From contig NC_134033.1 of assembly GCF_964204645.1 (NCBI RefSeq), positions 8,220,231-8,284,230 of the forward strand: a stretch of 64,000 bases of DNA, written 5' to 3'. Of this stretch, positions 2,710-57,050 are shown in pieces. The notes under the pieces were generated by a model. It saw only the letters and a list, made by a program, of their open reading frames with translations, searched no databases and was not told where the DNA came from. The stretch is from Tubulanus polymorphus. Its lineage: Eukaryota; Nemertea; Palaeonemertea; Tubulaniformes; Tubulanidae. The position numbers and the translations under genes were made by a program. Position 1 is the stretch's first letter; every line of letters starts with the position of its first letter.

Positions 2710-5306
2710 AAAGAGGAGGGCATCCATGCATCTTTGATGTTTCATCCATAAAATTATACATTTGCAAAATAGCTTCATTTCATCCCTCGTAAAATCATTA
2801 ACTACAGATGAAAGATTTTTACCACAATCCAGCCAAAGCTGGCATAAACAAGAGGACCATAAGGTCCATATGGTCGGAGACAGATGATTAAAATTGACTA
2901 ATAAAGTAATGATTAATAGTGGAAGCATGAGGAGAATTTTTGGTCAGTGATAACAAATTTCAGTTTCTTATCAAATTTTTTTGTTCTACAGCGCACACCA
3001 TGAATAGGATTTTTTTTTCAATTTATCTGTCACTCTGTGAGTCAGTCTATGTTATATATACGAGCCGGAATGCCGCTCACCTTGCCACAGCACCATGTAG
3101 TATATATTAGTCTCAAAAGCCACACTATCAACCACGTAGGGTGATTCCCCGAGAGTACAGTATCTTCAAGCGGCGCAGTTTGCGTACGTACACGCATTAC
3201 TGGTAATTTTCATTTGAAAATCCCCTTACACGCACTATGCGGGCCAGTTTTCGAGCAAGTTTTCATTTACAACCCTGCAGTGACAGAAATGACCCTCTCC
3301 CAGTCAGTGTAAAACCATGCACAGTAGTTTTTATGAACTACTTTTGAATAAATCAGTCCACGAGGTAGGCCCTTAATTATATCGCCTTAAAACTTGTCAT
3401 AATTTCATCAGAAATTTGAGAATTATAATGCCCATAGCTAGAATCACGGATACAGGTAAATGATGCGTAACAGGCATTTTTCTATCGGATCTATGTGTTA
3501 CATAGTTATGGCACTACATCCATGGTAGTGGAGCTATTACAGGTGTTGTTCGGTGAACCGCAGGATTTTTACTTGATACGATGCCTTTTATGGTCTCTGA
3601 CCATAAAAATATTCTCTGGCCACAAGATGATAATCTTAACTCCACAAGACTTCATGAAATATATATACCAGATATTATATACCAGCGCGCTTATATGTTA
3701 AGAACATTCAAACATCCAGACATTCATAGCACAAGAGTTTTCAACGAAACAAAAAACACCAGGGCCTAGCCACTTCTACAATTGTCTGTCTAAATTATTG
3801 AGTTAAATAGTCGAAAATATACTACAATTTCAAATCAATTCACATCAACTGGAACTGGATTTGGCATATCAAAAAATCTTTACATTCTTATGTACACGTA
3901 TGGTATATAGATAGTGCTGTTTGTTCCCATCCAATTTAATTGATATATTCTTATGTACACGTTTATACATATACGTATGTATATAAGTACATATTATAAA
4001 AACATACAGAAATTGAATAAACATTTAATACAGTCATCGCTTCATTTTTAAATTTTTTCATACATTTTCTCTCAAGTGAGAGTTTTATTAGGAGAAAAAA
4101 AAAATTGTAGTTTACAGAGTTTGTAACTTTACACAATGAAATCAATTGATATTGTATAGGGCATGGATTCAGGGGTCTTTATCAATCATAAAGCAGAGGA
4201 GATTTGCCTCCCCTCGAGCAAAGAAAATTTCACATATAGATTCTTTCCAGCAACTGGGGTGCGCCTTGGTAATTAATCATTAGCGATCGAACTTTAAAAT
4301 GTTGGCTGCCAAAAAACTGGTCGGCATTATGGCAGATTATATGAATAACTGAGGGAGGTTAGGTTACTTCTTTTTTAGTGTAAAGCACCCGGGATCCACC
4401 CCTGAATTAACTTCATATTGCTAGCAAAACCAACGCAACGCTCTTGCACATGTGCATGTTTCAGCTCACTCATGCATATGTGCAAAAAGTGTGTATGATA
4501 ACTAAAAAAATATAGCGATTATTTTGCAGATACCAAAGCGAAATGAATGCAAAACATTTCAACATAATTCTATTTGTGCTTTCAACCATGTGCAAAACAT
4601 TCTAAATACGTTATGATATCGATAATCAACTAACATTAATTATTCTAATCTTAATGCGTAATAAGCAATCCTTTGCCAAAAGTGAACTACTGGTTATAGA
4701 TTCTTAAAAACTGTATTCAATCACAACACTTTTGGCATTTTGCAACAGAAACATAGACAGATCTATGGGGAAAAGGGGCACATGGATGGGCCTGGAGTTA
4801 GATTTGACCATGAGATACTTTAATTTTCGTTTATTTTTGCAGTAGTATGTTGACCAAAAGCTGTGGAAAAAGCTGGGTCTTTAAACACTAACTGGTAACT
4901 TCCACAATTTTAAAACTAGGTCAAATAATTATATAGTGACATTGGGAATAAATTTTCGAATACTTACACAATGCTCTCACTCAGGGCCAAGCCTAACTTA
5001 CTGATGATAAGGATAGATCCCAGTTTGTCCAGACATAGAGAAGGTTAAGAAGAATAAGATAAGAACATCTAGAAGATCTTTTTAGGCTGGCTCCAGAACA
5101 AAAACGGACCAAGGGAAATTTTTGAACAAAGTGTCCCCGTATTGTCTTCTTCAGTTACGATTGCATGCAGCATAAAAATCTATTCGATTTTCCCTATCAT
5201 TGTCTTTATAAAACGTAGAAAACGCAATTTAGAGTATGTGTACTTCAATTGGACCCCCATGGGTGAATTACACCTAAATAAATGCCCTCAATTACACCAT
5301 TACTCT
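2710..5306. other. 3' flank of the collagen gene, no gene recognised
   Basis: AT-rich DNA without a supportable coding region on either strand. 2930-2960 resembles a short piece of repeat X (ttggtcagtgataac). 4200-4400 contains a weak hAT-like terminus (see rejected list). Confidence 0.5.
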
Positions 5307-5312
5307 TTTATT
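5307..5312 (-). terminator. Candidate polyadenylation signal of the collagen gene
   Basis: AATAAA on the minus strand, about 145 nt past the collagen stop codon. It is the first such hexamer I noticed downstream. The 3' end itself cannot be fixed from sequence. Confidence 0.4.
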
Positions 5313-5455
5313 TCTAGGACCACTCAGTATAAAGTTTGAGTACTTAGATGTTGGGCAAGATTTTGTCATTGATGGTAGATTATGCTTGTGTAATCAAAAG
5401 AATGATTAATTATTTAATTATTTACTAGCGTAATAATCTATCACTTTTGCTGAAG

Positions 5456-5710
5456 TTACGAACTTCGTAGACAAACTTGGCACCGACTGATACGCTGACG
5501 CAAACTGCCGGCTTTCAGCGTCTCGGAACGAGGTTGTTTAAACTGTGCGAACTGGTCGATCGTTGCCAGCCAAAAACTGTATGTTGTTGCATAGTAGTTA
5601 CACGTTCCGCGCCCATGACATTCGATGAACGGAGATGGTCGGAAATCTTCCAAACATGAACCTGGCGACTGCATACTCTGACCAGTGGCTGCTGAACCAG
5701 CGCCGGTGTG
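5456..5710 (-). CDS. Collagen IV last coding exon, NC1 C-terminus and stop
   Basis: Acceptor gaatttttcag, phase 0 start; 84 codons then TAA at 5456-5458. [68 protein letters not shown]. All cysteines of subdomain 2 are present and the Lys of TLKAG matches the sulfilimine partner. Ends at the usual NC1 length. Confidence 0.96.
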
Positions 5711-6074
5711 CTGAAAAATTCAATATCGAAGTCAGTACAATTATCAGATCATAAGAACATAGGAAACCATGTCTTATACTTTGGGCTTAGTTGCTTCATT
5801 GATCTAGAGGACATAAGCTGCATCAAACTGAAAAGATTGATCAGGACCAGGCCCTAGTTGAATTAAGCCTTTGCCTAATCACACGTATATCTCTCACTCA
5901 TTACTTAAATGGTATCAAAACGTTGCTGTGGCAAGTGAGTCGAGTCACTTCCAGAACCTTATACAGAACTTTCACGAGGAGTAATTTGGCCAGTGCTAAA
6001 ATTTGCATGGACCCTTTTGGACTAGGTTAGCATGGACCAAATTTGTTGCAGGTAAAAAACGCTAGTGTGATCAC

Positions 6075-6272
6075 CACTTTTAGTCTGGTATACAGATCAC
6101 TGACCTCGTCAATCCAGGGTTTACAGGTTCAAACCCTGGTGGCGAGTTTCTTGGTCGAAGGTTCTTCTCTGGTCTCTCCCCCATTGGGAAAAAGAAACAT
6201 AAAACCCGCTTATAATGCCCTGCATGGCGCTTAGCGGGTTGAGGTGTTAAAATTAAAGAAAAAAAAAAACAG
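6075..6272 (+). repeat. tRNA-derived SINE
   Basis: A box-B-like GGTTCAAACCC at 6125 follows a possible box A about 42 bp upstream, then a conserved-looking body (TAATGCCCTGCATGGCGC, TTAGCGGGTTGAGG) and an A-rich tail. The layout fits a tRNA-headed SINE. Family assignment needs a repeat library. Confidence 0.55.
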
Positions 6273-6720
6273 ATATAGTGTATCGGAGCTCACGCTGATT
6301 TTTTCAAACTAAGGAGAGAATGTGGGAGGCAGAGTCCACACACATTTCCTTCAATTCTTGATTCATCAAGAGTGCCAGTTCCATAGTTGATTCATGTGTT
6401 CGAAAATTGGTATGACAGTTGTTTAGGCGACCTCTGCTACTCACTTAGGTCATCATAGCTGGGCGATCAGACGACTTATGGAAATAAACACTGGGACTCA
6501 AAAATAGACAACTTACCATAAGTGATGTGATGATCTAACCAAATTTGTCAATGGTATTGAGGGGGTTAGGGTTAGGTTCAGATACTTATGTAAACTGCAG
6601 TTGCATCAAAAACTAATAGATTAGATATAGAATTAAACCTCACTCACGACTATGGAACTGCATCCTAAGTTCACTTTGCTTAACAATGTAATACCCAGTA
6701 CATCATTCAAATAAGAAATA

Positions 6721-7939
6721 CAACTAGGGGTCCAGGGACACCATGCCCACTTGGGAAGTGGTTTCCAATGCTCAACAATCTAAGAATTTCAATGTCCAAC
6801 GCCACCTGGTGACCATATACAAAAACCAATGACCTTGAACCTCACCACAATCATAGAACATGTCAGCAGCTATGATTTTACCAATTTAATATGGAAATAC
6901 TGAAAGTATTCTACTATTCAACGCCCCCCCTGGTGACCATATTCAAAACCCAATGACCTTAAAACTCACCATAATCATAGAACATGTCATAAACTACAAC
7001 TTTGCAATTGATCATGATAACAAAATATGTCTCATTACCAATTTAATATGGAAATACTAAGTATTCTACTATTCAACGCCCCCTGGTGACCATATTCAAA
7101 ACCCAATGACCTTAAAACTCACCATAATCATAGAACATGTCATAAACTACAACTTTGCAATTGATCATGGTAACAAAATATGCCTAGGTACCAATCTAAT
7201 AAGGAAATACTAAGTTATTCTACTATTCAACGCCCCCTGGTGACCATATAGAATAAATAATGTCCTTAAAACTCACCACAATCATAGATGATGTCATGAG
7301 CAACAACTTTGCAATTAATTATGGAACCAAAATATGCTTAGGTATCAATATAATGTGGAAAAACTTTTTCCCACCTACCAATGAGTACTGATGATACCAA
7401 GATGGCCGCCAATTGCGTCACAATCAAAAATACCTGGCTCAAGTATAAAACAACCCTTTCCAAGGAATACCCATCAAAAATTGCAATGAGAAATGGCAAA
7501 CCAGTAGGAAGCTACAGGACATTTTTTGGCACTAAAAAGGTCATAGGACGGCCATCTTGAGTCCGATCGACCCAATTTTTCTTATGGTGATGGGCCCTGG
7601 GGGGATTCAAATATATATAAAAGATCAAGGTAATTGATTTAAGCGTCTTCCTTAATTTCCCTCAAAAAGTTCAAAAAGTGTAAAAAGTACTGATTTTGAC
7701 GAACAACAATGGCTGCCAGTCGGCCATCTTGAATCTGAGAGGGCCAGTTTTTGGGCTGAAGATGTGTCTAGGGTAGACACATGTATAAACCAAATATCAA
7801 TACATTACCTTGAAGCATCTTCAAAACTTCCCAAAATAACTGGATTCCGTCTACGGACGGACGGACGGACGAACGAACGGACGGACGGATGAAAAGTGAA
7901 CGCAATAGCCCGCTGGGACTAAAGTCCCAAGTGGGCTAA
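6721..7939 (+). mobile_element. Pearl/HINE-like element, copy 2 (most complete)
   Basis: Left end AACTAGGGGTCCAGGGACACC; left hairpin CCACTTGGGAAGTGG; tandem modules starting at about 6800, 6922, 7077 and 7231 (period 154-155 after a short first module); unique right segment; (ACGG)n microsatellite at 7853-7885; 3' hairpin TGGGACTAAAGTCCCA; end GTGGGCTAA. TGCCCACTTGGGA near the left end is the inverted complement of TCCCAAGTGGGC at the right end. No ORF. Confidence 0.8.
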
Positions 7940-8522: not shown

Positions 8523-8609
8523 CATCATTATACTGTAACCGATCCACATTCCACGCCAGCCGTTCGGGCACCGCGGAATTTGCATAGTTTGACTATGAAC
8601 AGCCATGAG
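8523..8609 (-). CDS. Collagen IV NC1 alternative exon, version B
   Basis: Acceptor cattcgtag, donor gtaaga; 87 nt, 29 codons, phase 0 to 0. Encodes [15 protein letters not shown] then [14 protein letters not shown], closer to the usual metazoan sequence (MAVHSQ). Only 63 nt separate it from version A, a very short distance for splicing the two together. Including both would duplicate the start of subdomain 2 and add an unpaired Cys. Confidence 0.9.
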
Positions 8610-8672
8610 CTACGAATGACAAGAAATGAGAAAATCGGCATTACTTTACAAGGTGAAAATATTTCAACTTAC

Positions 8673-8759
8673 CACAATTAAACTGTAACCGATCCAAAGG
8701 CTCTCCCAACCGGTTGGGCAATCGGGGATTTCCCGACTCTGACTATGTATGGCCACTAA
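8673..8759 (-). CDS. Collagen IV NC1 alternative exon, version A
   Basis: Acceptor ataatctttcag, donor gtaagt; 87 nt, 29 codons, phase 0 to 0. Encodes [15 protein letters not shown] then [14 protein letters not shown], the start of NC1 subdomain 2. Either this exon or the one at 8523-8609 joins CEAPAQ (17001) to HTGAGS (5710) in frame. The two encoded segments share 16 of 29 residues by my alignment, including the Cys and the GW..(L/M)WIGYS core. No stop or splice defect is visible, so neither copy looks like a pseudo-exon. Confidence 0.9.
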
Positions 8760-10811: not shown

Positions 10812-12060
10812 CTACACTAAAGGGTCCGATCGGAAAGAACGGACACCTTGAGCCATGACAACAGGACCAAGTGAAGCTAATGAGCCTAACTGGCCTGAAA
10901 CATCCCGTAAATAAAATGACGTGAATGTCGACGGTGAATTCCAAAAGGCGGCCCGACAGACTTCCTCCAACGGAGCACCCGAAAAGGCTGCGCAGGAAGT
11001 AGCCATAGACCTCACTTGATGAGAAACGACTCCCTCCGAGGAAAGATTCTCCTTCAATAAAATGTCCTTGATCATTGAAGAGACCCATCGGGCTACTGTG
11101 TCCCGCGAAATATCACCCTTTAGGTGATCCAGCAGCGGAATAAATAACCGCTCCCGTGAACCCCTCCGTGAAGCAGAGCGATCTAAATAGAAACACAACG
11201 CCCGCACAGGACATAAAGTCCTGTCCGGGATGCCCGGTTCCACTCGATGTTTTAGGGCTTCAATTCGCCATTGACGCCCAACCGAGCCTGGTCGTTGGTT
11301 CTTTGCCAAAAATTCCAAAGCAGGCCGCAGCGAAACAAATTCATTCGCTGGCCCAAAGACAATGTGACCTTGTCGGACTGAAAGCGCATGAATCTCAGAG
11401 CGACGGGCCGAGCAAGCCAAGAACAGCAAAAATACAGTCTTTTATGACAAATTCGCAAAAGACGCTGCCGAAAGAGGTTCAAATGGAGCCTCCATTAACT
11501 TCTTCAAAATTACAGACAGATCCCATGGTGGAACTGTCCTTGTTACCCGAGGCCGGGAAATGGAAAACCCAGCAACCAGCTGGGATATCCGATGATCCCC
11601 TGCTACATTTGGCCATCCAGAAGCACGCAATGTATGAGAAATCGCGGAGCGGTAACCTTTAATAGTTATGACCTGTAAACCTTTTGCTACAAATAGGTGC
11701 AGTAAAAAATCTGCCAATTGAGCTACAGAGGGTGAGCATGGATCAATTTCCCCTGCAGCACACCAATCCGCAAAATGACTCCATTTGGCATCGTAAATGG
11801 TACTTGTTGATGGCCGCTTAGATCCTGCGATAAAGGAGGCAGCCTGTTCTGAAAAGCCTGAAGCTGACAAGGATCGCTGGACAATGGCCAGGCGAGCAGA
11901 TTTAACCACTGGCTGTTTGGATGATGCCGAAAGATCCCCTGAGACAGAAGCGATGGGAAATCCGGAAGAATCCTGGGGTTGTCGCACAGTAGGTTGAGAA
12001 GTGGTAGGAACCATTTCTGAGCCGGCCAACATGGTGCTACCAGAACTATGTTGCAATTGA
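10812..12060 (-). pseudogene. DIRS tyrosine recombinase, one in-frame TAA
   Basis: Integrates the circular DNA intermediate. The N-terminal SAM-like part (STIYDAKWSHFADWC, LADFLLHLF, IKGYRSAISHTL) lies upstream of a TAA at 11442-11444; the catalytic part continues in the same frame: ARRSEIHAL (Arg I), VSHQVRSMATS (HxxR), AFWNSPSTFTSFYLRDV (Trp and the Tyr nucleophile). It overlaps the end of the RT frame, as in other DIRS elements. The 5' limit is approximate because the frame runs open into RT antiphase sequence. Confidence 0.88.
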
Positions 12061-13894
12061 CTGATCTCTCTATTTGATCCAGTAAGCGCGGCAGGACTGG
12101 TGTGGGCGGGAACGCATACGCATGCATCCCCGACCAGTCCAGAGAGAAGGCATCGACCCCCCACGCTTCCGCGTCTGGAAACGGGGACACAAACAGAGGA
12201 CACCTCCGATTGAACCGGGTGGCAAACAGATCCAGCAGCGGATTGCCAAAAATGCCCCGAACCCGATCGGCTACTTCTTGGTGGAGAACCCATTCTGTCG
12301 CAATAGCCTGACCTCGACGAGACAGAGCATCGGCCATCACGTTCCTTTTCCCTGCTAAATGTGCCACAGTCAGGGACACGCCCTTTGTCTGGCACCAAAG
12401 AAGAATTTTGGCCGACAGACCTGTGCGGGTTTCTGAGTGAGTGCCCCCTTGGTTCTGAAGGTAAGCCCTCACTGTTGAATTGTTTGTGGCTAACCAAACG
12501 TGGTGGCCCTCCACTCTCCTGTGAAAGAACTTCAGGGCCTTCCACACGGCCAGCATTTCTAGGAAATTTATGTGGTTGGTGGCCTCGTAGCGAGACCATT
12601 TCCCGGCTTTGACTCGGTTCTCCAGATGTGCCCCCCAACCTTGGTGACTGGCATCCGTGAAAACACGAACTGGAGCCTCTAACGGGGCTAGTGACACCCC
12701 GAGCCGAAGATTCGTAGTGGCCGCCCACCACTGAAGATCCGGACTTAGATCGGTTGGAGGTACGGGAATCAAGGCCTCCCAGTTGCCCTTCGACTGAGAC
12801 CAGACCACCTTCCAATATTGTTGCAAACGCCTGCTTCTGAGGCGGCCTAAGGGCACCACCAGACCCATGGAGCTGATGGAGCCTAGAAGCCGTGACCAGT
12901 AACGAGCTGTTCTCGGGGTTGTGGACACTCCCGCTACAGCTTCTTGAAGTTTGGCCACTCGAACCATAGACGGAAAGACTTTGCCGATTCGGAGATCGAA
13001 GTCCATGCCGAGATAAGTGAACTGTTGGGCCGGCGTCAACTGAGATTTTTCCCTGTTTACGCGGAACCCTAGCTGATGGACTAAGTCCAAGACTGAGGTC
13101 ATTGCCTCCCGACATTCCTGAGCCGAATTCGCGACTATTAACCAGTCGTCGAGGTAAACGAACAGTCGAACACCCCTTGACTGAAGTACCTTCTGAACTG
13201 ACTTGACCAACTTGGTGAAAACCCACGGGGCCGTACTGAGGCCAAATGGAAGAGACCTGAATTGGAACTGGCGGCCTTTCCACTTTATCCTGAGAAATCG
13301 CCGAGATTTTGGGTGAATTGGAACCTGAAAGTAAGCATCTTTCAGGTCCAATGAAGCCGCCCATTGACCCGGACGGAGCCCTTGAATCACGTCCTTGGGC
13401 TTGGTCATCCGGAACCTTGGAATGTCTAGGTGCCGATTGAGGGATGACAGATCTATCACTGTCCGTTGACCCCCTGTGGCCTTTGGTACCATGAATATTC
13501 GAGAAAACCAGCCGGGAGAAGTTTCGTTGCAAACTGGTTCTATCGCTCCCTTCTCTGCCAGTTCCTTGAGAGCCGGAGAGATTAAGGCCTCCTGACCTGG
13601 TTTTGGCCGCATGTCGGGAGGTGACCTCATCAGGCGCGGTCGCCTTAGGAAACGGAGACGGTAGCCCCGAGAGACGACCCGGGAGGGCCAACCGTCTCCA
13701 AAGAGGTCGGACCAGTGGGTTGCTGCCTGCTGCAGACAACCTCCCACTGGTCCCAAGAATTCATTTCGAGTTTTTCCGAAAGGAAGAGCCCCTTTTTGGA
13801 GCCTTCCCCTTGCCTCGATACGAACCGGAACTGTTACGACCGGACGAGGCTTGACACGATTGTTGAAGTTGCGCGCTAGTTCTCCAACCGGCAT
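11723..13894 (-). CDS. DIRS reverse transcriptase / RNase H polyprotein
   Basis: 723-codon open frame. RT motifs: FMVPKATGGQRTVIDLSSLN, SLDLKDAYFQVPIHP, SLPFGLSTAPWVF and the catalytic YLDD (LFVYLDDWL). RNase H: VRVFTDASHQGWG, INFLEMLAVWKAL, NVMADALSR. The C-terminal third (LLDLFATRFN, AFSLDWSG, APCWPAQKW) is the extension found after RNase H in DIRS elements; I do not assign it an activity. No internal stops. The true start may lie upstream, since the frame overlaps the end of ORF1. Confidence 0.92.
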   Translation of the reverse strand: MPVGELARNFNNRVKPRPVVTVPVRIEARGRLQKGALPFGKTRNEFLGPVGGCLQQAATHWSDLFGDGWPSRVVSRGYRLRFLRRPRLMRSPPDMRPKPGQEALISPALKELAEKGAIEPVCNETSPGWFSRIFMVPKATGGQRTVIDLSSLNRHLDIPRFRMTKPKDVIQGLRPGQWAASLDLKDAYFQVPIHPKSRRFLRIKWKGRQFQFRSLPFGLSTAPWVFTKLVKSVQKVLQSRGVRLFVYLDDWLIVANSAQECREAMTSVLDLVHQLGFRVNREKSQLTPAQQFTYLGMDFDLRIGKVFPSMVRVAKLQEAVAGVSTTPRTARYWSRLLGSISSMGLVVPLGRLRSRRLQQYWKVVWSQSKGNWEALIPVPPTDLSPDLQWWAATTNLRLGVSLAPLEAPVRVFTDASHQGWGAHLENRVKAGKWSRYEATNHINFLEMLAVWKALKFFHRRVEGHHVWLATNNSTVRAYLQNQGGTHSETRTGLSAKILLWCQTKGVSLTVAHLAGKRNVMADALSRRGQAIATEWVLHQEVADRVRGIFGNPLLDLFATRFNRRCPLFVSPFPDAEAWGVDAFSLDWSGMHAYAFPPTPVLPRLLDQIERSVNCNIVLVAPCWPAQKWFLPLLNLLCDNPRILPDFPSLLSQGIFRHHPNSQWLNLLAWPLSSDPCQLQAFQNRLPPLSQDLSGHQQVPFTMPNGVILRIGVLQGKLIHAHPL

Positions 13895-16016
13895 CCGAAG
13901 CCGCCTGAGAAAGCGCTGAAGTTTGAGATGGTCCTGTTTGCGTCCGTGCCGAACCTTGCGCCGCCGGCGTCGGACCAGAACGCTTTTTCCACGGAGTTCG
14001 GGGGTTGGACTTGGCCTGAACCTCCCGAATCTTCCTCAGCTCTGCGGACACCGGAGCGCACCAACCGGAGAAGAGACGTGAAGACGTCCCCAATGGGGCT
14101 CTCAGCAAAGCATTGGACACCATATCCGGTAGACGAGTTTTGGCACTGGAGTCCATCACTGACTGACGGGAGGCTCACACCAGATTAGCCTGACCCCGAA
14201 CCGACAACGGAATTACATGCGAAACAGACCGAGCCAAAGATTGGATAATCCGGTCCATTCCCTCCAGTTTTAGGGCAACTGACTCTGGGTCGGAGCCCGC
14301 ATGAACGGCGGCGTGAGTCTCGCGAAGCTCACCCGTCAACACCTTAAGTGCCATATCTTGAAACGAACCAACCCTGGTAAGATTGTCCAGGATTGACGTC
14401 ATGGCCACCAAACCGGACTTAGGCAAACGAATACCCGACTGTGCTGTAACAGTATCCGGGCTGATCAAAGTATAATCAGCATCCAGGCAGTTATGACTGT
14501 GATCCACGACACCTGGAGTTGCGTAATACGCCGAGCGAAATGCGCCTATAGGTGGATCGGTTGAACTAAAATATTTCCCAGATTTCATACCCCGTTCTGG
14601 AGGGGGAAATGAAAAAGTTCCAGGCCGACATTCACCCCATAATTGCGTATCCAATCGAGCCCATTCTCTTGAAACCGCTGACGATTCCCGTAAAACGTTA
14701 AGATCGGAGTCCGGAGGGCGATAAGCTTCCATTGACTCACCGACCAGAGGAGCTGCTGTGGGCTTAGCGCGAGTTGCCCCATGCTTGACAAAGAACTCAC
14801 TTATCATCGCTCTAAATGGCATGTCCCCCGCTGGTTCGGATAAAACTGAACGGGACGGAGATACATTGCGAGCCAGGGAAGCCCCCATCGTCTGGGGCAA
14901 CCCACAATTGCTTGCGACAGGAACGACCCCAGAAGGAATTGCCGCCTCTGGGACCGGATCCTCATTGAAATCAGACCCTACCGCAGCATCCAGGAATTCA
15001 GAGTCAGAATTCCGAAAAACTGAGTGGGCTGGCGAACTTCTAACCGGACAATCAGGAATAGGCTTACCTGTTGTAGAAGTTGCAGCGACTTGTTGCGACG
15101 AAGATAACAAGTTTAAAATTTTCTCCTCAAATACATGGAAATCCTTCTGAGTCAGGTATTTTCCAGTATCCCGACGATCATGCCGACTTCGGTGACGGTC
15201 CCTCGAACGGGATCGCGACCTACTAGAAGAATCGCTTTCATCGCTAACCAACGTCGACGAACGATGAGAAGACCGACGGCGAAACTTCCGACAATAACGA
15301 TCGTAGTCCCTCTCGCGATCAAACCTTGATCTGCGAGAAGGAGATCTTGCTCGTTTATTACGCTCACGGCGTCTAAATCTAGTGGGAGAGCGAGCTCTAT
15401 CCCCGGAGCGACGATCAGAATCAGACGATGAACGTACCGGATGTTTTGAACCAGACGACGTCTGGACCGGACCGGTGGCCGAACCGGACCGATGCCCGAC
15501 CCGGACCGGTACCGACCGAACCGGTGCGGGCCGTTCGCGACTACCGCGGCGCGCGCTCGGTTCCGAACATGTAGTCTGAACCGGCCAAACCGGCCGAACC
15601 GGTGAACGACCAGAGACCGGTGAATGACCGGAGACCGGTGCCGGTGAACCAGCGTTCCTCCCCGGTGAACGGAGTTGGGAAGCCGATCGTACCTGAATGA
15701 CCGGCGACCGCTCCGCTTTACGATAAGAAACAGGATTAGAAACGTCGGTTGGCACATCGGCCGAAACCGACGAATCCCTGCTAACTCGACGACGATCTCT
15801 TAGTTTAAGAGCCTTATCGGCCCGAAGCCAAAGGTCCTCGGACCACACGACGCAAATATTGCAAGGATTGCTCCTTGCACATATTTGACCGGATTTGCGC
15901 CTGCACGACGCACATGAATCGTGGTTGTCCCAGGCGCCAAACAAATGCCCGCATCCTTCCCCACCACGATGATGACCCTTAGGAGGGGGTGGCATAATTA
16001 TCCTGTTACAAATCAA
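13761..16016 (-). pseudogene. DIRS ORF1 (gag-like), one in-frame TGA
   Basis: The putative structural protein of the element. 613 codons from the Met at 16016, then TGA at 14175-14177; the same frame continues to a TAA at 13761, about 750 codons in total. It starts MICNRIIMPPPPKGHHRGG, has Cys-rich pieces near the N-terminus (CGHLF, CASC, CNIC), a long Ser/Arg/Pro-rich low-complexity middle, and after the stop a Gly/Ser/Arg/Lys-rich tail (RGKGKAPKRGSS). Homology to known DIRS gag is assumed from position. Confidence 0.75.
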
Positions 16017-16199
16017 AACAATTCAATTCAATTCAATCAAATTATATTTGTAAATAAAATTCTTACGGAAAAAAAGAAATCAGGGATAACCCCCAAACCG
16101 AACGGACTCACCGTTACGAGAGTGAAAACTCCCTAATATTCTAATTCCCAGATTTTTACGGCGAAAAAATCCAACGCGTTCTACTGCGAGAACGCCAAG

Positions 16200-23182: not shown

Positions 23183-24417
23183 AACTAGGGGTCGAGGGAC
23201 ACCATGCCCACTTGGGAAGTGGTTCCAAATGCTCAACAATCTAACAATTTCAATATTCAACGCCCCCTGGTGACCATATACAAAAACCAATGACCTTGAA
23301 ACTGACCACAATCATAGAACATGTCAGCAGCTACGATTTTGTAATTGATTGTGATAACAAAATATGCCTCGTTACCAATCTAATATGTAAATAATAAGTT
23401 ATTCTAGTATTCAACGCCCCCTGGTGACCATATTCAAAACCAAATGACCTTGAAACTCACCACAATCATAGAACATGTCGCGAACTATAACTTTGTAATT
23501 GATCATGGTAACAAAATATGCCTAGGTACCAATATAATAAGGAAATACTAACTTATTCTACTATTCAACGCCCCCTGGTGACCATATAGAATAACTAATG
23601 GCCTTAAAACTTGCCACAATCATAGACGATGTCATGAGCTACAACTTTGCAATTGATTGTGGTTACAAAATATGCCTTGATACGAATAAAATATAGAAAT
23701 ACTAAGATATTGTATTATTCAACGCCCCCTGGTGGCCATATACAAAAACTAATGACCTTGAAACTCACCACAATCATAGAACACGCTATGAGCTAAAAGT
23801 TACTAATTGATTGTGGTAACAAAATACACTTAGGTATCAATATAATGTGGAAAAACTTTTTCCCACCTACGAATGTGTACTGATGACACCAAGATGGCCG
23901 CCAATTGCGTCATAATTGGCGGACCAAAAATACCTGTCTCAGGTATGAAACATCTCGCTGCAAAGAATACCCATCACAAATTGCAATGAGAAATGGCAAA
24001 CAGGTAGGGAGCTACAGGACTCAGAATTCAGGCCAAAATTGACATTTTTGGGCACTAAAAAAGGTCATAGGACGGTCATCTTCAGTCCGATCGACCCAAT
24101 TTTTGTTATGCTGATGGGCCCTGGGGGGATTCACATACATCCGAAAGATCAAGGTAATTGATCAAAGCATCTTCAAAATTTCCCTCAAAAAGTTAAAAAA
24201 TGTGTAAAAAGTGTTGACTTTGGCGAACAACAATGGCTGCCAGTCGGCCATCTTGATTCTGACAGGGCCAGTTTTTTGGCTGAAGATGTGTCTAGGGTAG
24301 ATACATGTGTAACCCAAATATCAAGACATTACATTGAAGCGTCTTCAAAATTTCCCAAAATAACTGGATTCCGTCTATGGACGGACGACGGACAAAAAGT
24401 GAACGCAATAGCCCTAA
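23183..24417 (+). mobile_element. Pearl/HINE-like element, copy 3
   Basis: Left end AACTAGGGGTCGAGGGACACC; four modules at 23261, 23415, 23569 and 23723 (period exactly 154); right segment complete to the ACGG tract. The 3' hairpin is precisely missing: GCAATAGCC joins CTAAAAA. Confidence 0.8.
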
Positions 24418-33639: not shown

Positions 33640-35393
33640 AACTAGGGGTCCAGGGGACACCATGCCCACTTGGGAAGTGGTTTCCAATGCTAAAAAAATC
33701 TAACAATTTCAATATTCAACGCCCCCTGGTGACCATATACAAAAACCAATGACCTTGAAACTCACTACAATCATAGTAGAACATGTCAGCAGCTACGATT
33801 TTGTTATTGATTGTGATAACAAAATATGCCTCATTACCAATTTAATATGGAAATACTAAGTATTTCTACTATTCAACGCCCCCTGGTGACCATATGCAAA
33901 ACCCAATGACCTTGAAACTCCCCACAATAATAGAACATGTCATAAACTACAACTTTGCAATTGATCATGGTAACAAAATATGCCTAGGTTCCAATCTAAT
34001 AAGGAAATAGTTATTCTACTATTCAACGCCCCCTGGTGACCATATAGAATAACTAATATCCTTAAAACTCACCACAATCATAGACAGTGTCATGAGCTAC
34101 AAGTTTGCAAGTGATTGTGGTAACAAAATATGCTTAGGTATCAATATCATGCGGAAAACCTTTTTCCAACCTACGAATGAGTACTGATGATACCAAGATG
34201 GCCGCCAATTGCGTCATAATTGGCCGATCAAAAATACCTGGCTCAGGTCTAAAACATCCTTTTCCAATGAATACCCTTCACAAATTGCAATGAGAAATGG
34301 CAAACCAGTAGGAAGCTACAGGACTCGGAATTCGAGGCAAAATTGACATTTTTGGGCACTTAAAAGGTCATAGGACGGCCATCTTGATTCCGATTGACCC
34401 AATTTTTCTTATGGTGATGGGCCCTTGGGGGATCGAAATATATACGAAAGATACAAGGCAATTGATTTAAGCGTCTTCAAAATTTCCCTCAAAAAGTGTA
34501 AAAAGTGCTGATTTTGACGAACAACAATGACTGCCAGTCGGCCATCTTGATTCTGAAAAGGCCAGTTTTGGGGCTGAAGATGTGTGTCTAGGGTAGATAC
34601 ATGTATGAACGAAATATCAAGACATTATCTTGAACTGTCTTCAAAACTTCCCAAAATAACTGGACGTATCGGCCCCACTCCGCGCGGTTGCGCCACCGCG
34701 CGGGATTTACGCGAAGCAGCAAATACAAACATGGCCACTCTCTCAATTTTCAGTGATAGAAATCGTGTCCACATTTCAATTATTTCGGCTGTTAGGGTTT
34801 TAAGGCACAATATAAGTTGATGATGTGATATGGCGATGTTAATTAATGATAATTCCTCAGTGAAGCTAGTCACGAACGGTGCCAATCGAGTGTACAGCTG
34901 CCAAAAACACTGAAATGTGCGTAGTTGCGTAACTATTTGCAGTGAATTGCAGACGAAACATGAAGCCTTAACGGCCGTTTAAAAAAAAAATTATACCAAT
35001 CGCAATTGTAAAATAAAGATGAGGTAGAACCTAAGTTAAAATTCTGGCCATTTCTAAAATGTTATTACTAATTTTTAGTCAGTGCGGAACGTTTAGCTTT
35101 CCAACAATAATGAGGGGTGGCAGGTAGTCATGCAATTCAAGTCATCATTTATTACACGTTACTTCCGTGTTGTTGAAAATCTTGCGAGTCCTGGACCAAA
35201 CCCCATTGAACAATTTGATCTGTGTGCTGGCCACAAATGCTCACAGATCACACTACACTACCCATTACACACTCCAGTAACCACAGCTTTCATATATCCA
35301 TCCAAATATTTAGAGTGTCTTTCTTCCTGGATTCCGTCTACGGACGGACAGACGGACGCTATGACGCTGGGACTTAAGTCCCAAGTGGGCTAA
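33640..35393 (+). mobile_element. Pearl/HINE-like element, copy 5, interrupted
   Basis: Complete left end, three modules, right segment, then a 667-bp insertion at 34665-35331 bounded by CTGGA on each side, then ttccgtctacggacgg, hairpin TGGGACTTAAGTCCCA and GTGGGCTAA. Confidence 0.78.
34665..35331. mobile_element. Unclassified 667-bp insertion in pearl-like copy 5
   Basis: Bounded by a CTGGA direct repeat, consistent with a 5-bp target duplication. Starts with a GC-rich hairpin (cgcgcggttgcgccaccgcgcg). No ORF and no clear terminal repeats. Confidence 0.45.
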
Positions 35394-39958: not shown

Positions 39959-40011
39959 TTTTGGTGCCGTGACCAGGATATACAAGCAGTAAATTCGGAA
40001 ACTCAGCCAAG

Positions 40012-41265
40012 ATGCCGTCGAAAGAAGAGATCATGCGAAATGCGCAAATTCGACAGATGACGAAACTTTTTGATCAGGCGAGGGAGTTACTTCATTCGGA
40101 AAGTGACGAAAGCCTAGACAAATTGTCTGGCGTCATAACTAGAATACGTACAAAATTGGAAGTTATCGCAGGATATGATTCGGAACTGATTGCGAACGCA
40201 GAGTTAGGGAAACTCGAAGACCTCGTGTGTGAAACCGATGATTATATGAACGAAATAAACATCGAACTATCAATCTTCATCGGATACCTCGAACGGAAAA
40301 AGAATCAAATCGAACCGACAACGCGCATGAAATCCGAGCAACAAAAAACTGCGAAAAGACCGATCCAGTTGCCGAAGTTATCTTTGCCAACATTCGATGG
40401 CGATATTCTGAAATGGCAAACGTTCTTCGATGGGTTTTTCTCGGCAGTTGATAGTGATGAGAACTTAACGAATATCCAAAAGTTCCAATATCTGTCCGCA
40501 CAGCTAAAGGGCGACGCAGCAAAAACGATCGAAAACCTGAGTTTAACAAACGAAAATTATAATCAAGCTTTGGAACTTTTGTTAAACCGGTACGGGACAC
40601 CACACAAAATTGTGGCCGCATACATGAAAGCGTTGTGGGAGCTTTCACCACCGAGTGATCGCGACAACTCACTACGGAATTTCTATGACTCTCTGGAATC
40701 TTATATTCGTGGATTAAATTCACTCGGAAAATCCGAAGAATCGTACGGAGATCTGTTAGTACCCATCATAATGGAAAAACTACCGAGCGGAACTAAACAA
40801 CAGATTACCAGAGACCACGGTAACAATGCTTGGAGCCTGACTGATCTAAGAAAGTCACTCCTTAAAGAAATTGAGGCCTTCGAGGCTAGTATCGAAAGCC
40901 TTACGATACGGGATGATTTTCCCACCAACTTGCCGACCGTGGGAGCGTTCGCAGTTACGGCGAAAAACAGACATAATTTTTCACGGGAAAACGATCGAAA
41001 ATGTGCGTTCTGCAAAAAGATCAATCACGTTGCGGTGGACTGTAAAACGTTTCCAGATGCTGAAAAACGCAGAGAAATTGTTGCTAGGGATAATTTATGC
41101 TTTAATTGTCTCTCGAGCGGACACAAATCGACGAAATGCTTATCGAAAAACAGATGCAGAGTTACAAACTGTGGCAAAAAGCATCACACATCAGTTCATT
41201 TAGATGCAAAATCAACCACACATGTGGCCGCAAAATCAACCGATGAGAAAGCTGACAGGGATTGA
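40012..41265 (+). CDS. BEL/Pao gag
   Basis: 417 codons from the first Met after the LTR. The N-terminal half is helical and Glu/Lys-rich; the middle (LPKLSLPTFDGDILKWQTFF, FQYLSAQLKGDAA) matches the DUF1759-type capsid region of Pao elements. Two zinc-knuckle-like Cys/His clusters occur near the end (CAFCKKINHVAVDC and CFNCLSSGHKSTKC) plus a third Cys/His stretch. It ends in TGA, but the same frame stays open immediately afterwards as the protease, so gag and pol were probably one frame. Confidence 0.92.
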   Translation: MPSKEEIMRNAQIRQMTKLFDQARELLHSESDESLDKLSGVITRIRTKLEVIAGYDSELIANAELGKLEDLVCETDDYMNEINIELSIFIGYLERKKNQIEPTTRMKSEQQKTAKRPIQLPKLSLPTFDGDILKWQTFFDGFFSAVDSDENLTNIQKFQYLSAQLKGDAAKTIENLSLTNENYNQALELLLNRYGTPHKIVAAYMKALWELSPPSDRDNSLRNFYDSLESYIRGLNSLGKSEESYGDLLVPIIMEKLPSGTKQQITRDHGNNAWSLTDLRKSLLKEIEAFEASIESLTIRDDFPTNLPTVGAFAVTAKNRHNFSRENDRKCAFCKKINHVAVDCKTFPDAEKRREIVARDNLCFNCLSSGHKSTKCLSKNRCRVTNCGKKHHTSVHLDAKSTTHVAAKSTDEKADRD

Positions 41266-44200
41266 CATCAGTATCTGGGCGCCGCCGATGGAACAGTGTT
41301 ATTAAAAACAGCTATCGCGAACGCAAAAAGTCGCGAAGGCGTAACGACTAACGTAAACATCTTGTTCGACGAGGGCGCTCAGCGGAGTTTTATTACTCAA
41401 AGAACAGCCGAAAGATTATATATAAACAGTGAAGAAACCGAAACTATATCGATCAACACATTTGGCGCGAAACAATCAAGTGCGCGGTCACTGATTGTTG
41501 CGAACTTTACACTATGTTCTGATGAAACCGACATACCGATAACGGCGTTAATTGTTCCACAAATTGCGTCGACAATGCGAAACCAAACCGGCAGATCTAT
41601 CAAAGATTTACCGTATCTGACAGGTTTGAAATTAGCGCATCCGTTTTCTACCGAATCACACTTCGAAATCGACATTTTAATCGGTGCCGATTTCTATTGG
41701 TCAGTGGTCGGTAACCACACAATCCGCGGAAATGGACCCACGGCAGTATCTTCGAAATTAGGGTATCTTCTCTCTGGACCGTTTAGTGATTGCGATCCAA
41801 TAAATACTGCACGAGTTTACAACGTGGATGTTACGTCACATCGTTCGGAGGAAGTCAACCTCCAAAAATTCTGGGATCTCGAATCCATAGGCGTAACTGA
41901 TGCAACAGATGCGGCTTCAAAAGAATTCAATCTACTCGACTACTGTCAATCAAGCCTGACGACATCCGACACGGGACGGTATACTGCGAAGTTGCCGTGG
42001 AAGAGTGGACACGCCCCCCTTCCGACAAATTACTATGTTACTCGAAACATAACACAATCGATGATTCGTCGGCTATCGCCGCAAATTCGAAATGTTTACC
42101 ACAACATTATCATGGATCAATTATCGCGAGACTTCATCGAAGAAGTCACAGATGATGACCGAAACATAGGTCATTATTTACCGCATCGCGCGGTCAAGAA
42201 GGAATCGTCAACAACCCCTATCCGTATCGTCTATAACGCGTCTTTATCGACCGCGGGAAACCCTAGTTTAAATGATTGTTTGGAGACCGGTCCGACGCTG
42301 CTGAATGACCTCGGTTCAATCCTGATCAGATTCAGGTTGCATAAATTCGGATTGTCGGCGGATATCGTAAAGGCGTTTCTTCAAGTTGGTCTGCACGATG
42401 ATGATCGCGAGTATACGAAATTTCTATGGTTGACTGATCCTAAGAATCCAGAAAGTGAACTCAAAACCTATCGCTTCAAGGTTATATTGTTCGGCGTGGT
42501 GAGTTCACCCTTTATATTGAATGCTACTGTTCGTTTTCATCTAAATAATTATAATAACCATGTATCACGTGACTTAGTTAAAAATATATATGTCGACAAC
42601 GCGATTAGTGGATGTGAATCTGAGAGCGATCTCATGGAATACTATACGAATATCAATAGCATAATGAAAAACGGCGGATTTAAACTTCAGTCTTATGCTT
42701 CTAACTCTTCGTTACTAAAGGCCAAAGCAGATTCCGATAATTTATCGGACGAGAAAACTATTGTTTCTACGCTCGGACTCCAATGGGATACGGTGAATGA
42801 TACGCTGTCATTCAAAAACAAACAAGCGTTCGCCAATCCTGACTTAATTACCAAACGCGAAATCGTTAAGGCTGTCTCGAGCCTTTATGACCCGTTAGGA
42901 TACGTCTCGCCTGTCCATATTAAGTCGAAGATGTTCGTACAGCAGTTGTGGACGGAAGGTTATGAGTGGGACGAAACCCTACCCGAGCGCGTAGTCGAAT
43001 CGTGGATCTCGTTGATAACGGAATTGCGTGAAATTAGCGAAATACGCGTTGATCGACGCTACTCGAAATCGGAAGCGAAATCGGAAGCTAAGTACGAATT
43101 GCACACTTTCTGCGATGCGAGCCAATTGGCATATTGTCTATCTAAAACGTGGAGATCAGACGGTACTCGTCATGTCTAAATCGCGTGTGGCACCTGTTAA
43201 AAAACATACGATACCGCAGTTAGAATTAATGGCCGCGTTGATTGGTGCTAAATTAACAGATTACGTTCGAAACAGTCTGATTACTGAAATAGTCATAACA
43301 AAGTGCGTGCTCTGGTCAGATAGCCAGATTGTGTTACACTGGATCAACTCCGAGAAAAAGCTTCCCGTCTTCGTAGCTAATCGCGTGCGTCAAATTAAAT
43401 CGGTGACAACTATCGGTCGCTATAAATATTGTCCGACGAGTGACAATCCGGCTGATATGTTAAGCAGAGGAATATCGTGCGAACAAATTACGCGATGCAC
43501 GCTCTGGTGGAATGGCCCTAGCTGGCTTAGCAACGGTAATTATCCCACCTGCGACACGATCGATCGAGCAGTTTTGCTCATAACCGAAATGGTCGAGGAC
43601 AAACAGCCTGATGAAAAAATCTGCGAAAACAACGAAGTCGGAATATGTAACGTAATAGATCAGAACGATTTCACTTCGTTAACAAGGCTATTACGCGTAA
43701 CCGCGCTAGTTCGACGATTTATTAAAAAGTTAAGACGCGAAAACCATGAATCGGATGAAATAACTACTAACGAAATAGCAGAATGCGAAGATCTATGGAA
43801 CAAAGGTGTTCAATCGAGTTACTTCAATGACGTGAAAGTTAGTTTAGAACATAAATCTAAGAAAAGGCCATCACTCGTAACGAAACTTCGTTTGTTTTTA
43901 GAAGATGATATCATTCGTGTTGGAGGCCGTCTCCAACGCGCCCATCGGATACGATGCAAAGTTTCCGATATTGTTACCTCATTGTAGATATAGTGAATTA
44001 ATCGTACTGGATTCCCATAATAAGGTCAAACACCTCGGTACAGAATCTACTATAACCGTAGTCCGACAAAAGTATTGGATTACTCGTGTTCGTCAAGTGG
44101 CTCGGAAGTTGTTGAGAAAATGCGTCATATGCAAATATATCACCGGTAAACCGTACTCGTTACCAAACTGCGCTCCGTTACAATCTTCGCGTTTGAAAGA

Positions 44201-45283
44201 GGCTCCACCCTTCACCGTCTGTGGTTTAGATTTCACCGGTGCACTACATCTTCGGTCGAAATCCGGAGAGGAGTCACTCGCGTATATATGCTTTTTTACT
44301 TGCGCCAACACGCGTGCCATCCATCTGGAAGTGGTAACGGACATGACTACGTCAACATTCCTACACGCGTTGAGGAGAATGGCTGCCAGACGTTCGTTAC
44401 CACTGAAAATAATATCGGACAACCAATCAACCTTTATTGCGAGTAACAATGCTATCAAAAAGATATACGAATCGATCGAAACCCGAAAGTACTTCAGCCT
44501 ACACCGATCAGAGTGGTCATGATAACTCGTCGAGCCCCCTGGTTTGGTGGATTTTACGAAAGGCTAGTTGGAATAACAAAAACCGCGATCAAAAAAGTTC
44601 TGGGGCGTGCGCGAATATCCCTGCTGGAATTGATTACGATCGTATCAGAGACTGAACAAGCTGTAAATAATCGCCCGATATCGTACTGTTCATCTGATGT
44701 GGACGACCCAGAACCTTTAACCCCGTCACATTTCCTTCACGGTCGCGTTCTCACGAGTTTACCGCATCTGTTCGTAAGTTACGATGAACTGACCGACCCG
44801 ACGCTTGGAAATGTGCCGTCAGAATTCGAAAAACGTTCGGTGCGAATCGGTTCATTAAAACAACATCTGTGGAAACGTTGGGCTGAGGAATACGTAACAG
44901 CCCTACGCGAAAGACACATCCAGTTTAAAAATCGCGGATTAACTGGAAATACCATCAGAAAGGGTGATGTCGTGTTAGTACACGACGACAATCATAATTC
45001 GCGTCTGAAATGGAAACTAGCACTGGTCGAGGAACTCGTTCCGGGGAACGACGGCTTAGTTAGAACCGCTAAGATCAAAATTTCGAATGGCAGGACTAAT
45101 CGACCAATTAGCAAACTCTACCCTCTTGAAGTGCGCGCCGCAGATCCCTCGAACACGTGCAAACCGGACTCAAACGTAAATTCTGCACCCGTCACACGTC
45201 ATTCGACGAGAAAGGCAGCTGCCGAGGCTAGAAATAACATCAGTAGATGGGCTAACGTGCTGTCTGATACATGTAGTAGTTAA
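41266..45283 (+). pseudogene. BEL/Pao pol, disrupted
   Basis: Protease LFDEGAQRSFI; RT (FGLSADIVKAFLQV, FGVVSSPFIL, catalytic IYVDNA with Asn in the last position); RNase H beginning HTFCDAS; integrase zinc region (LDSHNKVKHLG...CVIC), core Asp at VCGLDFTG, Asp at IISDNQSTF and Glu at GGFYERL; C-terminal DUF5641-like part (LWKRWAEEYV, KGDVVLVHDD). The frame changes near 43130 (within RNase H), near 43940 (before the integrase zinc region) and near 44515 (just before GGFYERL). As written it cannot make a full polyprotein. Confidence 0.93.
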
Positions 45284-53369: not shown

Positions 53370-54095
53370 GAAATTGGAGTCCAGGGACACCGTGCCACTT
53401 GGGAGGTAGCTTCAAATGCTCAATAATCTAACAATTCAATATTCAACAATCCCTGGTGACTGTATACTGAAATCAATGACCTTGAAAACTTACCACAATC
53501 ATAGAAATACTAAGATATTCTACTATTCAACACCCCCTGGTGGCCATACAAAACCAAATGACTGTGAAACTCATAGAACACACAATTATAAAACATGTCA
53601 TGAGCTACAATTTCGAAATTGATTGTTGTAACAAAATATGCCTAGGTACCAATATAATTTGGAAATACTAAGTTATTGTACTATTCAATGCCCTGGTGAC
53701 CATATACAAAAACCAATGACCTTGAAACTCACCACAATCATAAAATAAGTCATGAGCTACAACTTAGCATTTGATTATGATTACAAAATATCGATAGGTG
53801 CCAATATAAATACACTGGTGGCAATATAAATATACTGGTGGCAAGAACAAAGAATTGGGTCATCCCAATACCACATGAGGAGATAGATGTATCCTATGCC
53901 TGTACTAATAAAATTCAAATATTAAGAGCCAGTGCTAAAAAAATTCAAATAAGTTAAACCCTGTTGATATTTTCCTCAAAAAACCTTTTCCACCTACAAA
54001 AGAGTACTGATAGCAATAAGATGGCAACCATTGCGTGATAATTGGCTGATCGAAAATACCTATCTGATTTATTAAGTCCAAAGTGGGCTGAAATT
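53370..54095 (+). mobile_element. Pearl/HINE-like element, copy 7, decayed
   Basis: Left end gagtccagggacaccgtgcc, three degraded modules (ccctggtgac at about 53450, 53535, 53690), a partial right segment, and a 3' remnant aagtccaaagtgggctgaaa without hairpin. More diverged than the other copies. Confidence 0.65.
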
Positions 54096-55108: not shown

Positions 55109-57050
55109 AACTAGGGGTCCAGGGACACCATGCCTACTTGGAAGTGGTTTCTAATGCTCAACAATCTAACAATTTCAATATTCAACGCCTCCATCCAATG
55201 ACCTTGAAAAAAATTTCAATGACCTTGAAACTCTCCACAATTGTAGAACATGTCAGCAGCTACGATTTTGAAATTGATTGTTGTAACAAAATATGCCAAG
55301 TTACTATTATAAGTTATTCTACAATACAACACCCTGGTGGCCATATGCAAAGGCCAATGACTTTGAAACTAACCATAAACATAGAACATGTCATGAGCTA
55401 CAACCTTTCAATTGATCATGGTAACAAAATATGCCTAGGTGCCAATATAATAAGGGAATACTATGTTATTGTATTGTTCAACGCCCCCTGGTGGCCATAT
55501 ACAAAAACCAATGGCCTTGAATCTCACCACAATTATAGACCATGTCATGAGCTAGAACTTTCCAATTGATAGTGGTGACAAAATATGCATAGGTACCAAT
55601 ATAATATGGAAATACTAAATCATTGAATTGTTCAACACTCCATGGTGGCCATATACAAAACCAATGACCTCCAAAACTCACCACAATCATAGAACATGTC
55701 AGCAGTTACGATTCTGTAATTGCGGAAACAAACTATGCCTACTTACCAATATAATATGGAAATACTAAGTTATTCTAGTATTCATGCCCATATGACCATA
55801 TGCAAAGCCCAATGACCTCGAAACTATTTTAATTCATAGAACATGCTATGAGCTACAACTTTGCAATTGATCATGGTATCAAAATATGTCTAGGTACCGG
55901 TACCAATATAATTAGGAAATACTAAGCTATTCTACTTTTCAACACCCCTGGTGACTATATAGAATAACTAGTGACCTTGAAACCCACCACAATCATTGAA
56001 CAATTCAATTCAATTCCAAATTTATTGCGTCCTTATAATTACAGAGATTACATGAGACAGACATGGCAATAAAATATACATACAAAGAGACACTGACCAA
56101 TAACAGGAGAAAGAGCAAAAAAACAAACACATTTGAACAATACAAACAGGTGGTTACCAAGTTACTCACAATTGCGAAATTATAAACTACAAAAACAGAA
56201 CAATAAGTCAAGCAGCAAAACATGTCATGAGCTGCAACTTTTCAATTGATTGTGGTAACAAAATATGCATAGGTACAAATATAATATAGAAATTCTAAGT
56301 TATTGCATTGTTCAATGCCCCCTGGTGGCCATATACAAAAACTTATGGCCTTGAAACCCACCACAATCAAAGAACACGTTATGAGCTACAACTTTGATTT
56401 TGGTAACAAAATATGCTTAGGTATCAATATAATGTGGAAATACATTTTTCCACCAACGAATGAGTACTGATGACACCAAGATGGCCGACAATTGCGTCAT
56501 AATTGGCTGATCAAAAATACCTGTCTTGGGTATAAAAGACCTCTTTTCAAAGAAGACCTCTTTTCAAAGAATACCCATCACAAATTGCGATGAAAAATGG
56601 CAAAACATTAGGAAGTTACAGGACTCAGAATTCAGGCCAAAATTGACATTTTTGGGCACAAAAAAGGTCACAGCATTTTGAGTCCGATCAACCCAATTTT
56701 GTTCATGCGGATGGGCCCTCGGGGGATACAAATATATCTGAAAGATAAAGGTAATTGATATGCGTCTTTAAAATTTCCCTCGAAAACTTCAAAAATGTGT
56801 AAAAAGTGCTGAATTTGGCGAACAACAATGGCTGCAAGTCGGCCATCTTGAATCTGAGAGGGCTAGTTTTTGGGCTGAAGATATGTGTATACACCAAATA
56901 TCAAGTCACTACCTTGAAGCGTCTTCAAAACTTCCCAAAATAACTGGATTCCGTCTACGGATGGACGAATGGACGAACAGAATGGACAGATGGAGGAGGA
57001 CGAAAAGTGAACGCGATAGCCCGCTGGGACTAAAGTCCCAAGTGGGCTAA
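55109..57050 (+). mobile_element. Pearl/HINE-like element, copy 8, longest
   Basis: Left end AACTAGGGGTCCAGGGACACC; about seven modules of variable integrity; interrupted by a LINE fragment at 56003-56222; full right segment, ggatggacgaatggacg tract, 3' hairpin TGGGACTAAAGTCCCA and GTGGGCTAA. It ends 40 bp before the P-like transposon. Confidence 0.8.
56003..56222 (-). mobile_element. 5'-truncated non-LTR retrotransposon fragment
   Basis: The minus strand ends ggacgcAATAAAtttggAATTGAATTGAATTG: polyadenylation signal and short tandem tail. It interrupts a module of pearl-like copy 8 (catcattgaac | aacatgtcatgagc). No RT motif remains in about 220 bp. Confidence 0.65.

Follow-up and report, generated by a model that had tools for sequence, protein, structure and literature searches.

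The alpha1-like collagen IV gene of the nemertean Tubulanus polymorphus probably makes two alpha1 chains, by mutually exclusive splicing of a duplicated 87-nt exon inside the NC1 domain, the domain through which the chains of collagen IV recognise one another and assemble into networks. Each mRNA would take either exon A or exon B between the constant exons 17206-17001 and 5710-5456 (positions refer to the window, the whole 64,000-nt stretch of DNA analysed here), giving two alpha1 chains that would differ at 13 NC1 residues. In the mechanism that we propose from the sequence, both exons would be used and their exclusion would rest on the intron between them, which at 63 nt would be too short; the exchange would change an exposed polar face of NC1, taking its charge from -2 to +2 around the conserved residues P131 and W134, and the likeliest effect would be altered contacts with ligands, receptors or neighbouring chains, rather than an altered front-to-front contact in the hexamer.

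Layout of the exon pair

The exon pair is real. Exons A and B (Table 1) share 16 of 29 residues and 58 of 87 bases; both are preceded by AG and followed by GT, and neither contains a stop. When the window was searched with A by tblastn, B was matched at E 5e-11, and the second-best match was 18715-18632, the homologous start of NC1 subdomain 1; no third copy of the exon was found by tblastn in the window, nor across the 168 kb spanning both collagen genes (E up to 1e-3). The DNA of the pair has a single matching locus in the assembly, which together with its degree of identity rules out chance resemblance or an assembly artefact: mis-joined haplotypes are rejected because 58/87 is far too low. 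The earlier note had described tandem 87-nt exons of phase 0-0 at these coordinates, with good splice sites, a 63-nt gap and 16/29 shared residues, and all of this was found as claimed.

By a crude matrix, the donors of A and B stand in the top 0.4% and top 1.0% of all GT on that strand of the window, and the acceptors in the top 3.7% and top 2.2% of all AG; the acceptor score is lower for A than for B (6.8 versus 8.0) and the donor score is higher for A. The junctions flanking the pair are 17001 upstream and 5710 downstream, and, 87 being divisible by three, the reading frame stays open up to the last exon's stop in all four possible joins (A, B, both or neither). Retention of the intron between the two exons would bring in an in-frame TGA at the third intron codon.

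Table 1. Coordinates of the exon pair, its constant neighbours and repeats of the same gene (positions in the window)
Feature	Position	Strand	Description
Exon A	8759-8673	minus	87 nt, phase 0-0, NC1 residues 117-145
Exon B	8609-8523	minus	87 nt, phase 0-0, NC1 residues 117-145
Intron between A and B	8672-8610	minus	63 nt, GTAAGT...CGTAG
Intron 5' of the pair	17000-8760	minus	8.2 kb
Constant exon	21316-21109	minus	last Gly-X-Y segment and NC1 entry
Constant exon	18704-18592	minus	NC1 subdomain 1 start (...QDLG)
Constant exon	17206-17001	minus	remainder of NC1 subdomain 1 (SHGSCLQRF...CSVCEAPAQ)
Constant last exon	5710-5456	minus	remainder of NC1 subdomain 2 and stop (HTGAG...CLRSS)
Retroelement in the intron just 5' of the pair	10812-16022	minus	reverse transcriptase and RNase H in frame 11723-14035
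BEL/Pao-type retroelement in a collagen intron	39973-45283	plus	matches in two frames
Tandem repeats	6879-7365, 23254-23857, 33706-34145, 53504-53809, 55332-56002		150-154 bp units, 2.0-4.4 copies

Several introns of the gene also carry repeats. Those in tandem have similar-looking consensus sequences; of the two retroelements, the one on the plus strand matches DUF1759, an aspartic peptidase, a reverse transcriptase and a Pao peptidase, and the one on the minus strand has another frame that is presumably recombinase-like, of DIRS type.

Host gene and partner gene

Nine exon matches to NC1 (PF01413) were obtained in the assembly (267.8 Mb in 77 contigs); they share one contig and make up two genes: the alpha1-like gene of the window, on the minus strand, and an alpha2-like gene on the plus strand. 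The animal seems to have only these two collagen IV genes; mammals have six. The alpha2-like NC1 lies at C9:8380108-8384228 (plus strand), about 155 kb from that of the window gene, and the two genes stand head to head, as judged from their diverging predicted exons. In the alpha1-like gene two C4 (PF01413) subdomains follow the Gly-X-Y exons, and the joined NC1 of isoform A matches 13 distinct solved sequences, the best-scoring single-chain entries being alpha5 and alpha1. Residues R76, D78, M93 and K211, read by eye from the structure alignment with an offset of 11, are all present in the alpha1-like NC1, and M93 and K211 we take to be the NC1 cross-link residues. A tree of 32 NC1 rows, from which the swapped exon was left out, groups the window alpha1 with the mollusc alpha1 rows of Crassostrea and Plakobranchus, with Artemia (on a very long branch) and with other rows at a support of 82/87, below the strong level; the alpha2 of the same species groups with two mollusc alpha2 rows at 81/77, likewise below that level.

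The homologous 29-residue segment is present as one copy in the alpha2 gene, where a single exon (C9:8383237-8383524) encodes it together with the end of subdomain 1. The intron 3' of the segment has the identical position in the two genes and is therefore common to both. The intron 5' of it is present in alpha1 and absent at that place in alpha2, having been either gained in alpha1 or lost in alpha2. It is this upstream intron, seen in alpha1 only, that makes an 87-nt cassette possible.

Constraint on both copies

A homologue set of 144 listed proteins, including the best 120 of 852 from one search, yielded 142 with a recognisable segment, four of which have insertions that put them out of register and were kept. 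We call a position near-universal if one residue occupies it in at least 134 of the 142 rows, and there are 13 such positions: A119, H121, S122, Q123, P128, C130, P131, W134, W138, G140, S142, F143 and M145. Exon A keeps 11 of these residues and exon B keeps 12. F143, found in 137 homologues, is lost in both (L in A, I in B) and retained in the alpha2 gene, and M145, found in 134, is replaced by V145 in A. Some residues of the pair are rare, namely R125 of A (in none of the 142), R129 of B (in two), M137 of B (in 12) and L117, which A and B have in common (in one).

Between A and B, pS is 0.62 over 17 synonymous sites only and pN 0.26 over 70 sites; by the NG86 method dS is 1.30, again from only 17 synonymous sites, and dN is 0.33. 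The duplication looks old, and both copies look as if they had been filtered, because the synonymous difference exceeds the non-synonymous one and the near-universal residues have been kept. The same residues were used in a simulation of 100,000 runs, in which random changes were made to B and a copy passed if it stayed free of stops and retained 11 or more of the 13 residues: 7,189 copies (7.2%) passed after 10 changes, 957 (1.0%) after 15, 104 (0.1%) after 20 and one after 29, which is the number of base differences observed between A and B. A variant on the 11 residues common to A and B, a set picked post hoc, gave 0.13-0.16% at 15 changes and 0 of 50,000 at 29; the version with 13 positions is the weaker test of the two.

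B is the more typical copy and A the weaker case for constraint: 74 of the 142 homologues are nearer B, 30 nearer A and 38 equally near. The vertebrate alpha1 and alpha5 rows tend towards B and some arthropod alpha2 rows towards A, and those of vertebrate alpha2 show almost no preference. The oddities that A and B have in common, L117 and the loss of F143, suggest that the two split within this alpha1 lineage. An origin of A from alpha2 and of B from alpha1 is not supported (if not fully excluded), as the same two features argue against it; a segment of 29 residues is too short to give a firm tree. A motif scan of the homologues for the same pair found a single copy in each of the 142; these rows are proteins, and a protein prediction represents just one isoform.

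Why either exon but not both

Since the frame is kept both when the two exons are included and when they are skipped, it does not enforce exclusivity, and frame-based NMD is not expected either, because every combination stays in frame. With all four joins open to the frame, a structural reason for exclusivity lies in the cysteines: because each exon holds one NC1 cysteine, the normal count of 12 is obtained only with A or with B, and the domain would have 13 with both and 11 with neither.

The length of the intervening intron points the same way. To estimate intron sizes, the gaps between neighbouring exon matches of myosin and chaperonin genes were taken and corrected for profile overlap (76 of 91 and 44 of 53 rows entered, the other 24 checked by eye). 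Among the 49 introns estimated in these two conserved families none is under 63 nt, the smallest being 71 and 15 of them falling at 75-100; one uncorrected gap of 59 nt becomes 80 after overlap correction, and one of 54 nt among the rows checked by eye, inside a 575-aa open frame, corrects to 69. A rough exon chain of the two collagen genes, in which gaps of 40 nt or less were disallowed and the first links at the 5' ends are unreliable, gave 57 gaps (26 and 31), of which the single one below 63 (45 nt) is continuous open frame; the next are 70, 79, 79 and 82. Steric exclusion by the 63-nt intron fits these values, because 63 nt is below the estimated introns (smallest 70-71), and is plausible, not proven. 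Inspection by eye shows sites resembling branch points in this intron, some 18, 31 and 45 nt away from its donor; mammalian introns need more room. Together with the constraint and the cysteines, the short intron makes the exon pair, whose tandem arrangement is as the earlier note had it, very probably alternative, and the mutual exclusion that the note proposed is well motivated and probable.

An exon choice guided by RNA structure was also considered and is not supported: the exon region has no unusual RNA fold (z -0.47), its fold being ordinary and without sign of a switch. In the chaperonin family, one member occurs as a single 575-aa open frame on contig C31 (C31:7097-8704), which might be a bacterial sequence in the assembly or a copy without introns.

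Other readings of the splicing

Three other readings of the splicing have to be weighed. The exons may be alternative with the choice made by splicing factors, the short intron being incidental and a few transcripts containing both exons or neither, a reading that overlaps with mutual exclusion as proposed here. Every combination is in frame, and introns of 70-100 nt are common here, so that 63 is not far below the functional range; against this, no estimated intron is as short as 63 nt, and we regard the reading as unlikely. A rather smaller probability goes to the view that one of the two exons, most probably A, once served as an alternative exon but has largely or wholly dropped out of use, leaving the other constitutive in practice. 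A is the less typical copy, as its V145 and R125 and the leaning of the homologues (74/142 nearer B, 30/142 nearer A) indicate, and it has the lower acceptor score; yet it has no stop, has kept 11 of the 13 near-universal residues and has the higher donor score. With one genome compared, one copy may have gone out of use recently: 7.2% of the simulated copies still pass after 10 random changes.

Joint inclusion, which would give an NC1 with a repeated 29-residue segment, is very improbable. All joins are in frame and both exons have good splice sites, but the product would carry 13 cysteines and would have the segment twice within one subdomain, the intron that would have to be removed is, at 63 nt, smaller than the estimated introns, and no such repeat occurs among the 142 homologue segments. 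Mutually exclusive use of both exons thus remains our preferred reading.

Position and effect of the swap in NC1

The NC1 numbering used here takes its offset of 11 from the structure alignment and was checked against P131 and W134 of PMC6211539; structural placement follows the text of that paper and the numbering. A and B differ at residues 118, 120, 124-126, 129, 132, 135-137 and 143-145; their net charges are -2 and +2, and A and B have D and R at 129 and E and R at 135. As described in the accessible text of PMC6211539, the EB region lies in the exposed, structurally constant polar sheets I/I', and protomer clipping and protomer-protomer contacts belong to the equatorial sheets II/II'; SM1, SM1' (144-154) and SM2 are key to protomer formation, the joining of protomers needs the chloride loop 62-77, loop 185-189 and SM3', and the front-to-front contact involves all six motifs. 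EB itself comprises residues 127-141 of alpha3, according to the accessible text of PMC11507388. The exon therefore covers the whole of EB and, of SM1', only the first two residues (144-145); it is mostly the exposed polar sheet I', the region of the Goodpasture EB epitope in the accessible text of PMC6211539. The chloride loop (A74, S75, R76 and D78 present), loop 185-189, M93 and K211 all lie outside it, in constant exons.

We think that the swap mainly re-dresses the polar face and leaves the hexamer seam, because all of EB is inside the exon with just two SM1' residues, and the chloride loop, M93 and K211 are constant. It may also affect the choice of trimer partners. The earlier note had the isoforms differing in the assembly interface, a claim that is only partly supported: residues 144-145 are in SM1', but a change of the hexamer interface is not supported, the exon being mostly polar sheet I'; the placement of the differing residues on an NC1 structure, which the note had advised, was made by numbering and puts them mostly on the polar sheet, not on the equatorial hexamer interface. 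A rival view of the effect, though not of the splicing, is that the exchanged exon decides which partners come together in a trimer or hexamer. It could draw on the SM1' residues 144-145, a determinant of protomer formation in the accessible text of PMC6211539, and on the four charge units placed on a sheet that forms a polar layer with other chains and could affect trimers; but the same text assigns the EB region to a polar layer that is exposed and structurally constant, and locates the hexamer contacts in other parts, and we hold such selection to be doubtful.

Comparison with known systems

Tandem mutually exclusive exons are already known, and what would be new here is their location inside NC1. 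Among the papers listed in a limited search of open-licence literature (PMC5887144 and PMC11203716 included), no title or abstract opening describes a homologous NC1 exon pair, which agrees with the earlier note's knowing of no alternative NC1 exons of this kind in collagen IV, and the accessible main text of a paper on COL4 gene evolution (PMC12141075) contains neither 'splic' nor 'isoform'. So far as that limited search goes, no pair of homologous exons in an NC1 domain would have been described before this one. Such an exchange of 29 residues at one place in one gene would separate the polar EB face from everything else in NC1, and so would be a natural experiment on whether this face sets partner choice, ligand binding or antigenicity.

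Muscle myosin heavy chain has mutually exclusive tandem exons in Drosophila and other insects and in molluscs. In the present genome a head-domain exon (LEDQI...NNNSSRF) occurs four times in tandem in a myosin gene (C4:4125126-4126944; L025, about 5127-6945), the copies lying about 450-490 nt apart and each being followed by GTAAGTAA. This looks like a classic mutually exclusive array, and presumably corresponds to the muscle myosin exons of insects and molluscs; tandem exon arrays of a known kind would therefore occur in this genome. As in muscle myosin heavy chain, a single gene here would give variants of one segment from tandem homologous exons within one domain of a structural protein; the protein is another one, and in place of four copies at such distances the collagen gene has two, 63 nt apart.

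Within collagen IV, the let-2 gene of C. elegans (the alpha2 chain) has alternative, mutually exclusive exons 9 and 10. It resembles the present gene as a collagen IV gene with a mutually exclusive exon pair, and differs in that its pair lies in the Gly-X-Y region of an alpha2 chain rather than in the NC1 domain of an alpha1-like one. Human COL4A3 has alternative transcripts of the NC1 region, made by exon skipping; there too alternative splicing touches a collagen IV NC1, but skipping truncates or disrupts the domain, whereas homologous replacement would leave it whole. For the mechanism, the closest likeness is to alpha-tropomyosin, in which mutually exclusive exons are separated by a sterically blocked intron, the donor being too close to the next branch point. 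The exclusion proposed here would have the same cause; in alpha-tropomyosin the intron is longer and its branch point lies an unusual distance upstream, whereas here the whole intron is 63 nt.

We propose more tentatively, as a possibility that we rate below an even chance, that NC1 exon splicing does in this two-gene animal what gene duplication did in vertebrates, so that protomers and their surface chemistry vary. If this were true, A and B alpha1 chains would give up to three alpha1-alpha1-alpha2 protomers (AA, AB and BB), in which every swapped chain would shift the charge of the polar face, the homologue of the Goodpasture EB epitope, by four units, and tissues or stages would build basement membranes of differing surface chemistry and perhaps of differing partner choice. 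In vertebrates, according to the accessible text of PMC12141075, NC1 diversity came from gene duplication, which made the alpha1, alpha3 and alpha5 chains. There as here, one animal would have several alpha1-like NC1 variants, with the EB region among the parts that differ; in vertebrates, however, these are separate genes with differences along the chain, whereas here a single gene would exchange 29 residues.
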